Of a stretch of DNA of 64,000 bases, positions 17,684-26,106 are shown piece by piece. Both the position numbers and the translations under genes were made by a program. The stretch covers positions 3,844,001-3,908,000 of the forward strand of contig NZ_CP036401.1 in assembly GCF_004322755.1 (NCBI RefSeq), read 5' to 3'. This DNA comes from Pseudoduganella albidiflava. Lineage in GTDB: Bacteria; Pseudomonadota; Gammaproteobacteria; Burkholderiales; Burkholderiaceae_D. The notes beneath the pieces were generated by a model, which was not told where the DNA came from, did not search any database, and saw only the letters and a list, made by a program, of their open reading frames with translations. Positions within the stretch are counted from its first letter, which is position 1, and each line of letters begins with the position of its first letter.

Positions 17684-18877
17684 TTACTCCAGCGCCGCGG
17701 CCGGGCCGAAGAACTCGTAGTACATCTGGCTTTCCGGCACGCCCAGTTCGCGCAGCGAACGCTTCACCACTTTCATGAACGGCTGCGGGCCGAGGAAATA
17801 CGCATCCACGTCGCGCGTTGCCGGCAGCCAGGCCGCCAGGCGCTCGCTGTCGAGCAGGCCCACGGCATCCGGCGCGGGATGGCCGGGCTGCTGGCCGGCG
17901 TGTTCCGCATACACGTAGCGCCGGCGCAGTTGCGGGTAGCGGCTGGCCAGTTCATCGACATGCGCGCGGAACGCATGCACGCCGCCGTGGCGCGCGGCAT
18001 GGATGAAGTGCACCTCGCGCCCGCTCGCCAGCGCCGCCGGCAGCATGGCCAGCGTGGGCGTGATGCCGACGCCGCCGCTGATGAAGACGATCGGCCGGCT
18101 GCCGGCCGGTGCCAGCGTGAACACGCCGGACGGCGGCAGCAGTTCCACCACGTCGCCCTCGCCCACCGCATCGTGCAGGTGGTTCGACATCGCCCCGCCC
18201 CGCTCGCGCTTCACGCTGATCTGGTAGGTCTTGCCGTTCGGCGCGGCCGACAGCGAGTAGTTGCGGCGCTGGTCGACCCCGTCCACCACGGCGCGCAGGC
18301 CGATGTACTGGCCCGGCTGGAAATCGAGCACCGCGCCGCCATCCTCGGGACGGAACACGAACGTCGTGATCTCGTCGCTCTCGCGGCGCTTGCCGGCCAC
18401 CACGAAGCGGCGCAGGCCGTTCCAGCCGCCCGGTGCCGCCTTCATCGCCGCATAGGTCTGCCCCTCGGCGCCGATCAGCAGGTCGGCCAGCTGGCCGTAG
18501 GCGGCGGCCCAGGCGTCGATCACGGCGTCGGTCGCCACTTCCGCGCCCAGCACTTCGCGGATCGCCTGCAGCAGGCTGGCGCCCACCATCGGATAGTGTT
18601 CCGGCAGGATGTTCAGCGCCACGTGCTTGGCGACGATCTGGCCCACCAGCGGCCCCAGCGCTTCGAGCCGGTCGATGTTTTTCGCATACATCAGCACGGC
18701 GTTGGCCAGTGCGCGCGGCTGCGCGCCGTCGGCCTGGTGCGCCTGGTTGAAGTACGGCTTCACCTGCGGGTAGTCGCGGAACAGGATCGGGTAGAAATGG
18801 CGGGTCAGCGCCTCGCCGCCCACTTCCAGGATGGGGACGGTGGCGGTAACGATGGCACGGTGTTCGGCGGACAGCAT
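17684..18877 (-). CDS. hmp: NO dioxygenase (flavohemoglobin)
   Basis: Converts nitric oxide to nitrate using O2 and NAD(P)H in the cytoplasm. The globin domain spans about 1-140 (FYPILFRDYPQVKPYFNQ, proximal-His region IVAKHVALNILPEHY), then a ferredoxin-reductase FAD domain (DFQPGQYIGL, RRNYSLSAAP) and an NAD domain (FISGGVGITPTLAML, YFLGPQPFM). The 397 residues match Hmp. The ATG at 18877 has AGGGAGAA upstream. A near-consensus NsrR operator lies 34 bp upstream and an nsrR gene is the next gene on the same strand, so repression lifted by NO is the strong expectation. Confidence 0.95.
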   Translation of the reverse strand: MLSAEHRAIVTATVPILEVGGEALTRHFYPILFRDYPQVKPYFNQAHQADGAQPRALANAVLMYAKNIDRLEALGPLVGQIVAKHVALNILPEHYPMVGASLLQAIREVLGAEVATDAVIDAWAAAYGQLADLLIGAEGQTYAAMKAAPGGWNGLRRFVVAGKRRESDEITTFVFRPEDGGAVLDFQPGQYIGLRAVVDGVDQRRNYSLSAAPNGKTYQISVKRERGGAMSNHLHDAVGEGDVVELLPPSGVFTLAPAGSRPIVFISGGVGITPTLAMLPAALASGREVHFIHAARHGGVHAFRAHVDELASRYPQLRRRYVYAEHAGQQPGHPAPDAVGLLDSERLAAWLPATRDVDAYFLGPQPFMKVVKRSLRELGVPESQMYYEFFGPAAALE

Positions 18878-18910
18878 GGAGTTCTCCCTTGGGTTTCGGT
18901 GTTCGTTTAA

Positions 18911-18933
18911 AAGATGCATTTATTTTGCATCTT
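18911..18933. promoter_or_regulatory. NsrR operator upstream of hmp
   Basis: A 23-bp near-palindrome: AAGATGCATTT, one central base, TTTTGCATCTT. It matches the established NsrR consensus of two 11-bp half-sites built on AAGATGCATTT. It sits between the hmp start and nsrR, so NsrR bound here would block the hmp promoter until its iron-sulfur cluster reacts with NO. Confidence 0.85.
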
Positions 18934-18986
18934 TAAGGCCGCCGGAAGAATTGGACAAAATGTCCCAGGTGTCAGGCAGGCAACGG

Positions 18987-19046
18987 GAGCCGGTGAAAGA
19001 GCCGGTGAAAGAGCCGGTGAAAGAGCCGGCCAGTGAGCCGGTCAGG
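18987..19046. repeat. 12-bp tandem repeat at the nsrR 3' end
   Basis: Five 12-bp units in a row: GAGCCGGTGAAA three times exactly (18987-19022), then GAGCCGGCCAGT and GAGCCGGTCAGG. The last unit runs into the nsrR stop codon (19042-19044). In-frame-sized slippage at this site would change the spacing between nsrR and the hmp operator rather than the protein. Confidence 0.8.
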
Positions 19047-19500
19047 GCGCGGGCCGGCGTTCCGGCAGGTGCATCAGGATCGCGTGTTCCTGGCGGCGCG
19101 CGCCGGGCAGCAGGTCGGCCAGCGTGACGCCGTCGAGCACCGCCAGGAAGGCCTCGGTGGCTTCGCGCAGCTTGCCCTGCAGGCCGCAGGCGCCGGCGAA
19201 GGCGCAGCCGCCGCCGGCCGGATCGAAGCATTCGGCCATGTGGAAGTCCGATTCGCTGGCGCGCACCACGGCGCCGATATTGACGTCGGCCGGTTCCCCC
19301 TTCAGTCGCAGGCCGCCGTTGCGGCCGCGCACCGTCTCGACCAGGCCGGACATGCCCAGCTGGTGGATCACCTTGGTCAGGTGGTTCTTCGAGATGCCGT
19401 GCAGGTCCGCGATGTCCTGGATGGTGGACAGGCGGTCGCGGTGCATGCCCAGGTACATCAGGGAACGCAGCGTGTAGTCGGTGAAAGTGGTCAGTCTCAT
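19042..19500 (-). CDS. nsrR: Nitric-oxide-sensing repressor NsrR (Rrf2 family)
   Basis: A 152-residue Rrf2 regulator. The HTH is at the N-terminus (MRLTTFTDYTLRSLMYLG, TIQDIADLHGISKNHLTKVI), with the basic wing VRGRNGGLRL. Three cysteines in ECFDPAGGGCAFAGACGL (C-x7-C-x5-C) would hold an Fe-S cluster that reacts with NO. The N-terminal sequence is characteristic of NsrR rather than IscR. It lies upstream of hmp on the same strand with an NsrR-type operator between them. Confidence 0.92.
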   Translation of the reverse strand: MRLTTFTDYTLRSLMYLGMHRDRLSTIQDIADLHGISKNHLTKVIHQLGMSGLVETVRGRNGGLRLKGEPADVNIGAVVRASESDFHMAECFDPAGGGCAFAGACGLQGKLREATEAFLAVLDGVTLADLLPGARRQEHAILMHLPERRPAP

Positions 19501-19900: not shown

Positions 19901-22107
<2,207 letters not shown>

Positions 22108-22120
<13 letters not shown>

Positions 22121-23298
22121 GGGTCGGCCTCCCGGCCCGCGGCGCCGGCGGCCGCCATCCGGTCGCCCAGCGCGATGATGGCCGCCACGCCGCGCCGCAG
22201 CGTGGCCTCGTCGTCGGCGATGTAGCCAAGCCGGATGAAGCCGGGACAGCCGAGCGCCTCGCCCGGCATGATCGCCACGCGGTATTCCTCGATGAGCCTT
22301 TCGGCGAAGGCCGTGGTGTCGAGCGTCAGCGCGGAAATGTCGCCCCACAGGTAGGGACCGGAGGCCGGCGATGCCACCGCGATCCACGGCACCGGCGCGA
22401 ACAGGTCCACCACCAGGTCGCGCCGCGCGCGGTAGTCGGCCAGCAGGTCGGGCACGGCACCGATCGCGAATGCCGCCGCGGCGGCGGCCTGCGTCAGCGC
22501 CGGCACGGCCGCCGTGATCGGCCCCTGCAGCGCTTCCATGGCCCTGATCCAGGCCGCGGGCGCGCACGCGAAGCCGGCGCGCCAGCCCATCATCGCGTAG
22601 CTCTGCGAGGCCGAGAAGATCGTGGCGATGCCCAGCGCCTGCCAGTCCGGGCAGGCCGCCAGGCTGTGGTGCGCGCCATCGAACACCAGCTTTTCATAGC
22701 TCTCGTCGACGATGCAGGCGGTGCCGCGCGCGCGCAGCCAGGCACGGATGGCATCGAGTTCCGCCGGCGTGTACACCCGTCCCGTGGGGTTGTGCGGATT
22801 GTTGACCACCAGGACTTTCGCCCGGGGCAGGCCGTCCAGGAACGCCGCATCGATCACGTCAGGCTGGTCCACCAGCTCGACACGCAGCCCCAGCAACTGC
22901 GCCGTGGCCACGTAGGCCGGCCAGTGCGGCCGCATCACGATCACCGCGTCGCCCGGATCCGTCATCACGTACAGTGTCTGGTATAGCGCCTGCTTGGCGC
23001 CGTTGGTGACGATCACGTGCTGGGCCTGCGCATCGATGCCGTTCTCGGCGCGCAGCTTGCGAGCCAGCCCGTCGCGCAGTGCCGGCAGGCCGCCGACGGC
23101 GGTATAGGGCAGCAGCGGCTCGTCGAGCGCGGCGCGCACGGCGGCGCGCACCGGAGCCGGCGCCGGGAAATGCGAGATCGCGATCGAAAAGTCGATCACC
23201 GCCTCGCCGCGCTGCTTTAGCAGGTCGACGCGCTCGTGCATCGCGGTGGTGGCCAGCGGCCGTGCCGCCGCGATCCGTTTCGACACACTGTGCGGCAT
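22108..23298 (-). CDS. Aminotransferase-fold (class I/II) protein lacking the PLP lysine
   Basis: A 396-residue fold-type I protein. NPHNPTGRVYTPAEL, the DESYEKLVF aspartate/tyrosine region and the C-terminal arginine (GFIRLGYIAD) are all present. The Schiff-base motif, normally S-x-S-K-x-Y-A-M-T-G-W-R, reads SASQSYAMMGWR: the lysine is Gln232 (CAG). The N-terminal substrate motif (GEPDF-type in relatives) is also altered to DFSIAISHFPAP. It therefore should not form the internal aldimine needed for ordinary transamination. The ATG at 23298 has GGAGG upstream. It is translationally linked to the downstream hybrid kinase, so a ligand-binding or regulatory role is possible; a single-base assembly error must also be excluded. 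Confidence 0.8.
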
Positions 23299-23483
23299 GG
23301 AAGGTGCCTCCGCGAAGTTTCGCTGAAAGTTCATCTTTCGCTATCTTTCTTATAGTAGTACGACCGCTCGGACGGTCCGGATATTTTAACAAGATGCAAT
23401 ATTTATCGTATCACCCATTCGTATCGTGCGCGTGCCGGCGGCTACAATGCAGCCGAGTGGCAGCACGCATGAAAGGGGCACGG

Positions 23484-24564: not shown

Positions 24565-26106
24565 CTAGCGGCTTCCCTTCCCGCCCGGATCGGCCGGCGG
24601 CAGCGGCGCGTTCGACGGCCCGTGCAGCACCTGGCCGGCGATGTCGAAACGCGAGCCGTGGCAGGGGCAGTCCCATGACTTCTCGGCCGAGTTCCAGTGC
24701 ACCGCGCAGCCCATGTGGGGGCATGCCGCGGACAGGAAGGTCAGCTTGCCGTCCCCGGCGCGGTGCACCGCCATCAGCTTCAGGCCCTCGCGGATCAGCG
24801 CTCCCTCGCCGGGCGGTATGCGGTCCGGCGAGGCCACCTCGCCGCCCTGCAGCCAGTCGGTGTACTGCGCCGCCACGTTGGCCTGTTCCCTGGCGAACTC
24901 GCCCAGGCCGTGCAGCGGCATCCGGCCCGGATCGTACAGCGCCTCCCATGGATTGGCGCGGCCGGCGATCAGGTCGGTGACGAGGATGGCGCCCGCCGTG
25001 CAGTGCGTCATGCCGTTGCCGGAATCGCCGGTGATGACGAACACATTGCCCCGGTCGGCCGGATTGCGCCCCAGGTAGGCCACGCCATCGGCCGGTTCCA
25101 TCACTTCGCCGGACCAGCGGTACATCGCTTCGCCGGCCTGCGGGAAGCGCGCGCGCGTCCAGGCCTCGATCTCGTCCCAGCGGTGCTGGGGCATGCCCTC
25201 CTGGCCCGTCTTGTGGTCCTGCCCGCCCACCACGAGGATGTCGTAGGGCCGCGCCACCCGGGCGTCGTCGAGGCGCACGTAGTAGTACGGGTCGCCGGTA
25301 TCCCACAGCAGGAACGGTTCGATGGCGCCGCGCGGCACTGTCAAGCCGACGACGTAGCTGTGGTACGGCGCCACCTTGGTGTGCAGCACGAAGCGGTTGT
25401 TGAACGGCGTGTTGGTGGCCACCACCACCGCGGCGGCATGTACCGTGCCTTTTTCGGTGACGACGCTGGTGCCGCCGACATCGCGCGCCCGCGTGTCGCC
25501 GTAAATGCGGCCGCCGAGCCGCTCGATGGCGCGCACCAGCCCGGCCAGGTACTTCACAGGATGGAACTGCGCCTGGTTGTGGAAGCACAGCGCCGGCCCG
25601 GTATCCCAGGCCAGGCCCGGCACGCGCGGCAGCCGGGTAGTCGCGATGCCGAGGCGCTGCGTGCATTCATGCTCGCGCTCGATGACTGCAACGCCCTCCG
25701 CGCCGCCACCCGTGGCGGCCGGCACCAGGTAACCGTCCAGCCGGCGGAAATCGCAGGCGATCCGCTCGTCGTGCACGATCGATTCGACCAGGCTGGTGGC
25801 CCGCTCGTAGCTGTCGTGCAGCAGGTGGGCGCGGGCGTCGCCGAAGCGTTTCGCGATCCCGGCATAGCGCTCGTCGGGCGGGAAGAAATGCGCCGTGGTG
25901 CGGCCGGTTTCGCCGGCGCCCGGCTGCAGCGCGTCGACCAGCACCACCGACCTGCCCTCCTTCAGCAGCAGGTAGGCCGAGGTAAGGCCGGCAATGCCGC
26001 CACCGACTACGCACACATCGGCCGTCGTGTCGCCGGCCAGCGGCGCGAACGACGGCACCTGGGCGGTGTCCGTCCACAGTGAAACGGTGGCGGCATTGGT
26101 CCGCAT
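24565..26106 (-). CDS. FAD-dependent oxidoreductase with C-terminal Rieske domain
   Basis: A 513-residue fusion. The N-terminal DAO-type oxidoreductase starts with the FAD motif VCVVGGGIAGLTSAYLLLKEG and contains GETGRTTAHFF. The last 90 residues are a Rieske [2Fe-2S] domain: CPHMGC and CPCHGSRF give the two Cys and two His ligands. Such fusions are widespread but their substrate is not established; the domain pair suggests electron transfer from an amine or hydroxy-type substrate. It is the last gene of an operon with the His-rich protein (12 bp upstream) and the Zn-dehydrogenase, so a shared stress or detoxification job is inferred. Confidence 0.85.
   Translation of the reverse strand: MRTNAATVSLWTDTAQVPSFAPLAGDTTADVCVVGGGIAGLTSAYLLLKEGRSVVLVDALQPGAGETGRTTAHFFPPDERYAGIAKRFGDARAHLLHDSYERATSLVESIVHDERIACDFRRLDGYLVPAATGGGAEGVAVIEREHECTQRLGIATTRLPRVPGLAWDTGPALCFHNQAQFHPVKYLAGLVRAIERLGGRIYGDTRARDVGGTSVVTEKGTVHAAAVVVATNTPFNNRFVLHTKVAPYHSYVVGLTVPRGAIEPFLLWDTGDPYYYVRLDDARVARPYDILVVGGQDHKTGQEGMPQHRWDEIEAWTRARFPQAGEAMYRWSGEVMEPADGVAYLGRNPADRGNVFVITGDSGNGMTHCTAGAILVTDLIAGRANPWEALYDPGRMPLHGLGEFAREQANVAAQYTDWLQGGEVASPDRIPPGEGALIREGLKLMAVHRAGDGKLTFLSAACPHMGCAVHWNSAEKSWDCPCHGSRFDIAGQVLHGPSNAPLPPADPGGKGSR

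Follow-up and report, generated by a model that had tools for sequence, protein, structure and literature searches.

What can a protein with an aminotransferase fold do when glutamine stands at the site of its Schiff-base lysine, and how is it connected with the sensor kinase encoded beside it? These questions are raised by a minus-strand gene in the window analyzed here, a 64,000-nucleotide stretch of Pseudoduganella albidiflava contig NZ_CP036401.1. Homologues of its product, the Gln232 protein, are named aspartate aminotransferase or PLP-dependent aminotransferase by their sources (among the matches listed), although they are without the residue that such a name requires.

The frame runs from an ATG at 23296-23298 to a TGA at 22108-22110 and encodes 396 residues with no internal stop; the list of open reading frames gives an additional upstream start at 23334. 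Translation confirmed the two basic claims of the preliminary description, that the frame is intact and that codon 232 is CAG (Gln) at 22603-22605, which on the plus strand lies within SASQSYAMMGWR. In an alignment, Gln232 is opposite Lys306 of Arabidopsis prephenate aminotransferase (5wmh) and opposite the Ala of the K306A mutant (5wml). A single Pfam family, PF00155 (Aminotran_1_2), was matched at an E-value limit of 0.001 (residues 45-374; 171.3 bits, cut-off 19.7), and the protein is a member of the Aminotran_1_2 fold-type I superfamily. The two best NCBIfam matches were below their curated cut-offs (asp_aminotase_Arch, NF041091, 228.6 of 550 bits; GntC, NF041364, 215.7 of 415 bits). The AlphaFold2 model (pLDDT, 93.0; pTM, 0.91) matched aspartate and prephenate aminotransferases in Foldseek with TM-scores of up to 0.90, and these are the nearest solved structures by both sequence and fold; we take them to be of class I beta. 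Four of them (6f5v, 5wmh, 1j32, and 1bjw) share the fold with TM-scores by query length of 0.85 to 0.89 at 28 to 31% identity. Of 12 other matches in the same genome, 4 were inspected, and these paralogues keep the lysine (4/4).

Table 1. Features of the Gln232 gene and the adjoining kinase gene, in window coordinates. Contact roles of single residues are assignments that we make from known structures.
Feature	Position	Strand	Basis or occurrence
Gln232 pseudo-aminotransferase gene	22108..23298	-	396 aa, stop included; ORF list, PF00155, AlphaFold2 model
Thr17, aligned to Thr84 of prephenate aminotransferase	23248..23250	-	Thr in 119/119 proteins and 122/122 family loci reaching the site
A40-I-S-H43 for G-E-P-D	23170..23181	-	72/72 Gln rows; Lys rows G 50, E 48, P 51, D 49 of 51
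Lys102, aligned to Lys169 of prephenate aminotransferase	22993..22995	-	sole lysine among invariant positions
Asn170, cofactor contact	22789..22791	-	72/72 Gln rows, 51/51 Lys rows
Asp198, pairs with pyridine nitrogen in known enzymes	22705..22707	-	72/72 and 51/51
Tyr201, cofactor O3' contact	22696..22698	-	72/72 and 51/51
Gln232 codon CAG, at Schiff-base lysine site	22603..22605	-	translation; aligned to Lys306 of prephenate aminotransferase
Met237 for invariant Thr of K-x-Y-A-M-T-G-W-R	22588..22590	-	72/72 vs Thr 51/51
Arg240, phosphate contact	22579..22581	-	72/72 and 51/51
S313-G-P315 for G-A-F	22354..22362	-	S 71, G 72, P 72 of 72; Lys rows G 51, A 50, F 51 of 51
Arg356, alpha-carboxylate arginine	22231..22233	-	72/72 Gln rows; 49/51 Lys rows, 2 gaps
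Hybrid sensor histidine kinase gene	19901..22120	-	probable GTG start 22118-22120; 13-base overlap with aminotransferase-like gene
dCache_1 sensor domain, periplasmic by type	21365..22009	-	Pfam; sensor-part model pLDDT 77.0
HAMP domain of kinase	21071..21214	-	Pfam
HisKA domain of kinase, phospho-acceptor motif LAHELRNP	20819..21013	-	Pfam and motif
HATPase_c domain of kinase	20342..20677	-	Pfam
C-terminal receiver (REC) domain of kinase	19931..20263	-	Pfam

The preliminary description had proposed aligning homologues to see whether the glutamine is conserved, and had named close relatives with lysine as the result that would speak for an error or a recent mutation. Glutamine was found in 121/121 proteins (the query and the best 120 of 1,011 matches; 61 to 100% identical) and in 124/124 family loci (57 to 100% identical), two counts that are not independent because some genomes are present in both sets. 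The loci were drawn from a total of 210, of which 192 gave a tblastn match (124 family members and 68 others); 15 of these 192 rows cross a stop sign, and the signs were left in place. No close relative with lysine at codon 232 was found among the 121 proteins or the 124 family loci, and lysine was present in 68/68 of the more distant loci. A sequencing error or recent mutation at Gln232 is ruled out by these counts. The glutamine is encoded by both codons (CAA, 67; CAG, 50 in the loci counted for codon use). Pairwise dN/dS values were ∼0.04 to 0.23 (NG86, 14 gene pairs); the gene is therefore under purifying selection, and the same values rule out a pseudogene.

In a genome-collection scan, 59 of 64 loci were Gln family members, and the genera in their titles are, we presume, Oxalobacteraceae, where the title does not itself name an Oxalobacteraceae bacterium. 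Whole-genome searches found the family in 34/74 genomes of the same genus, 30/294 of the same bacterial family, 4/399 of the same order, and 2/398 of the same phylum, in samples that overlap and, above the genus, are draws from larger groups; every carrier belongs to one bacterial family. In the searches made here, the Gln family was thus found only in Oxalobacteraceae. The next matches beyond it are 31 to 38% identical and have lysine in all cases inspected, including four matches of 35 to 38% identity within the same bacterial family. In a tree built from non-identical rows with query coverage over 80% (Gln, 72; Lys, 58), the Gln proteins form one clade with a branch support of 100 and a stem of 2.73 changes per site; this tree was made by a quick method and has long outgroup branches, and it does not settle the sister group of the clade.

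Residues kept and motifs changed in the cofactor pocket

Alignment columns were compared between the 72 Gln rows and 51 Lys rows, 7 remote or long-branch Lys rows having been dropped. Residues Y65, G100, K102, W126, N170, D198, Y201, S231, R240, and R356 were each present in 72/72 Gln rows. Over its full length the protein has 99 invariant positions out of 396 (alignment of the 120 of 121 proteins over 370 residues long), W187, W219, W305, and His43 among the invariant residues, and a fully invariant pocket is therefore above the background rate. The residues at these positions presumably serve in known enzymes as contacts of the ring, phosphate, and carboxylate groups, and on this pattern of conservation the cofactor pocket seems to be in use rather than abandoned. 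The set of PLP and carboxylate contacts (Y65, N170, D198, Y201, S231, R240, R356, T17, and K102) is complete, and these residues are common to the Gln232 protein and the class I beta aminotransferases. They include the Thr84/Lys169 pair of prephenate aminotransferase, represented by T17 and K102, which we take to contact the side-chain carboxylate (a role that also rests on PDB titles).

Catalytic class I beta aminotransferases differ from the Gln232 family in the Schiff-base lysine itself, in three further motifs (GEPD, T237, and GAF, all replaced here), and in the companion of the family, a hybrid kinase. The preliminary description had noted that the NPHNPTG motif, the Asp/Tyr region, and the C-terminal Arg are kept and that a GEPDF-type motif is altered. 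Both parts hold: NPHNPTG is at residues 167 to 173, D198, Y201, and Arg356 are present, and the altered motif reads AISHF at residues 40 to 44. T237M and the replacement of GAF by SGP are changes beyond those described then, and further differences are fixed in the Gln clade, among them S229, A263, and W318. In the alignment, the substrate-side motifs (GEPD to AISH, T237M, and GAF to SGP) have changed together.

The companion hybrid kinase

The gene that adjoins the Gln232 gene encodes a hybrid histidine kinase, with HisKA, HATPase_c, and REC domains and both the phospho-acceptor His and the phospho-acceptor Asp motif. The best Foldseek matches of the sensor-part model were Cache-type sensor domains, with titles that include pyruvate, C4-dicarboxylates, and amino acids. 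A kinase orthologue is present in 53/53 whole genomes that carry the Gln protein and lies directly behind its gene in 52 of them (same genus, 34/34 carriers with the kinase, adjacent in 34; other Oxalobacteraceae, 19/19 with the kinase, adjacent in 18), which bears out the earlier statement that the gene is coupled to a kinase. In the collection scan, a kinase match lies behind the family gene on the same strand in 58/59 loci. At the one exception (locus L089, genome G857), the kinase is on a different contig from the Gln gene and has other neighbours, an arrangement that counts against the ligand-binding reading put first below. The kinase start is −30 to +60 bases from the Gln-gene stop in 53/58 loci (−4 in 14), with the start taken as the in-frame start nearest the stop, a choice that favours small distances.

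Among 74 genomes of the same genus, 34 have both genes, 14 have the kinase only, 26 have neither, and none has the Gln gene alone; the kinase-only group includes G045, where the kinase match is in two pieces, and G059, with a partial match (4-608). In the genomes checked, the dependence is one-way: the Gln protein occurs only with the kinase, and the kinase also occurs without the Gln protein. This fits an accessory subunit, a ligand receptor, or a client of the kinase, and since the kinase is kept without it in 14 genomes, the Gln protein is accessory at most. The far-side neighbour in these 14 genomes is one that is also present beside carriers: 9 have a divergent Peripla_BP_6 binding-protein gene (found also in 18/59 carrier loci), and 5 have a GGDEF-EAL gene (found also upstream in four carrier loci, at 67 to 78% identity). 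The neighbours are thus otherwise retained, and the family gene between them is missing. On the kinase tree (non-identical rows, coverage of at least 85%, identity of at least 50%; 12 of the 14 kinase-only genomes, with G045 and G059 excluded), the label "no Gln gene" requires 5 changes, 2 of which are forced by well supported branches.

Possible functions of the Gln232 protein

Most likely, the protein is a PLP- or PMP-dependent pseudo-aminotransferase that binds a ligand, perhaps a dicarboxylic amino or keto acid, and acts on the kinase. In the form that we put first, at about an even chance, it is a catalytically retired class I beta aspartate/prephenate-type aminotransferase that serves as the ligand-binding partner of the adjoining hybrid kinase. 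PLP or PMP would be bound without a covalent link. The Schiff-base lysine also performs proton transfer, and a lysine-less protein would thus be halted at the external aldimine by construction: an amino acid condensed with PLP would go no further than a dead-end external aldimine, and with PMP a keto acid would be held instead. The retention of Thr17 and Lys102, together with Arg356, indicates that this ligand is probably dicarboxylic; with AISH and SGP in place of the usual motifs, on the other hand, the ligand may have ceased to be a dicarboxylate. An amino acid is also weakly indicated by the amino-acid-type binding protein encoded beside many of the loci. In one of its two states, liganded or empty, the protein would then dock on the cytoplasmic portion of the kinase, which would receive, besides what its dCache domain reads, a signal on internal nitrogen or carbon; counting against this, the dCache model singles out no ligand. 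The Gln232 family may therefore sense a metabolite instead of making one.

A more specific form of this proposal is possible, and we hold it only tentatively, leaning against it. Here a two-component system would have the lysine-free aminotransferase as a dedicated receptor subunit for amino acids in the cytoplasm. PLP and a dicarboxylic amino acid, trapped as a dead-end external aldimine, would themselves be the signal that controls how active the membrane hybrid kinase is, and this kinase would read the periplasm as well.

A precedent for ligand sensing is GabR, in which the aminotransferase fold serves for sensing and goes no further than the external aldimine (PMC6917764). The likeness to MocR/GabR is in the proposed mode, the signal being an external aldimine that is bound and not turned over. 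MocR proteins have an N-terminal wHTH domain fused to the aminotransferase fold, whereas no DNA-binding domain was matched in the Gln232 protein (Pfam, E-value limit of 0.001). In MocR, Lys312 is conserved across all clusters (PMC6677901); the Gln232 protein is without this lysine, and its proposed partner would be a histidine kinase in trans. That MocR sensors keep the lysine counts against the binding proposal, in that its loss is not needed for sensing. The Gln232 protein perhaps works like GabR, though it is no MocR protein. Were the sensor reading true, the aminotransferase fold would act in trans as a two-component receptor, in addition to its known use in MocR, where it is fused with a DNA-binding domain.

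The main rival to a binding protein, which we judge unlikely without discounting it, is a lysine-independent enzyme in which PMP or PLP is bound non-covalently, another residue acts as the acid-base, and a metabolite detected by the kinase is made or removed. The invariant cofactor pocket speaks for it, and the conserved residues would suit an enzyme as well as a sensor, a point against the binding proposal. Candidates for the acid-base, a role that His fills in ColD and E1, are His169 and the new invariant His43 of AISH, where Lys-bearing relatives have Asp (49/51 rows); His43 is a candidate picked from the alignment. Lysine-less relatives of aminotransferases that are enzymes do exist, namely the 3-dehydratases ColD, E1, and SpnQ, which have His at the lysine site and use nucleotide sugars as substrates (PMC8987622). 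In the Gln232 family the site holds Gln, which rules out the known lysine-less 3-dehydratases; that Gln is no base weighs against the enzyme reading. The best profiles and structures are moreover aspartate aminotransferases, not sugar aminotransferases or CqsA, and the kinase is kept without the Gln gene in 14 genomes of the same genus. Also weighing against an enzyme, the FAD oxidoreductase/Rieske-like gene nearby (24568-26106) is matched in only 1 of 59 loci. If the enzyme reading is true, the family would represent PLP or PMP chemistry done without the lysine and with Gln in its place.

Gene order offers a further parallel for an enzyme. CqsA-type synthases are active PLP enzymes of another branch, with an active-site lysine, and the synthases of the CqsA and JqsA pairs presumably have the aminotransferase fold. 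Janthinobacterium, we assume, belongs to the Oxalobacteraceae. That active-site lysine is absent from the Gln232 family, the sensor here has a dCache domain, and CqsA was not among the listed profile and structure matches of the Gln232 protein. The likeness is that a synthase gene lies beside a sensor kinase gene in CqsA/CqsS and JqsA/JqsS, the autoinducer synthase gene jqsA adjoining the kinase gene in Janthinobacterium (PMC3566124). Between a binding protein and a lysine-independent enzyme, the sequence does not choose.

Less probable still, and in our view distinctly so, is that neither PLP nor amino acids are bound in the classical manner, the pocket holding another small molecule or the protein being a scaffold for kinase docking. 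The loss of the lysine, GEPD, T237, and GAF removes or remodels substrate-side elements, as this would have it; D198, Y201, N170, S231, R240, and Y65, the known PLP holders, are nevertheless all invariant, which would be needless for a pure scaffold. A migrated catalytic lysine, with invariant Lys102 forming the Schiff base in a working aminotransferase, is very unlikely. No lysine other than Lys102 is invariant in the family, and kinases offer a precedent for a migrated lysine in WNK1 (PMC10211241). But Lys102 is shared by 45/51 Lys-bearing relatives, and its counterpart in prephenate aminotransferase is Lys169; it is therefore an old residue and no replacement. Scarcely credible is a decaying gene, a sequencing error, or a chance kinase neighbour: the gene has apparently been lost more than once, as the 5 label changes (2 forced) on the kinase tree indicate, but all members examined have Gln with both codons in use, dN/dS is low (∼0.04 to 0.23), and the kinase orthologue accompanies every one of the 53 carriers.

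The conservation of Gln232, the invariant pocket, purifying selection, and the kept kinase thus speak against decay and uphold the view of the preliminary description that this is a repurposed ligand-binding protein or a non-canonical enzyme. A search of the open-licence PubMed Central literature found no report of a lysine-less or kinase-linked aminotransferase family like it. One other lysine-less case, named in a survey of the PLP proteins of Mycobacterium tuberculosis, is Rv3778c, likewise a PLP-enzyme relative without the conserved lysine and judged likely noncatalytic; it is distantly related to cysteine desulfurases, and the part of the source available describes no kinase partner (PMC12910592). 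As an experiment set up by nature, the Gln232 family is a clean one: a single lysine-to-glutamine replacement is fixed across a bacterial family in an otherwise retained cofactor pocket, and it goes with one and the same kinase.

Other genes around the pair

In many loci of the Duganella/Rugamonas type (L151, L153-L160, and 18 of L031-L089), the Peripla_BP_6 gene, which we take to be of the branched-chain amino acid type, is the divergent neighbour of the kinase or of the gene pair, whether or not the Gln protein gene lies in between. At L031, L033-L035, L148-L150, L152, and L161, a GGDEF-EAL gene lies upstream, either of both genes or of a kinase that stands alone, hinting at a cyclic-di-GMP link; the L150 copy has PAS and a weak dCache match. 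At L161 (G045), where no Gln gene adjoins, the kinase match falls into two overlapping segments in separate reading frames, as a frameshift would produce. Near the pair in the window, at 24568-26106, is an FAD oxidoreductase-like gene with what appears to be a C-terminal Rieske-like motif; its single match among the 59 family loci (L032) makes it no fixed partner of the Gln gene. Downstream of the kinase, at 17684-19500, a presumed flavohaemoglobin-like gene lies beside an Rrf2-type regulator gene (the L031 copy of the latter, 90% identical, matches Rrf2), perhaps a nitric-oxide response pair.
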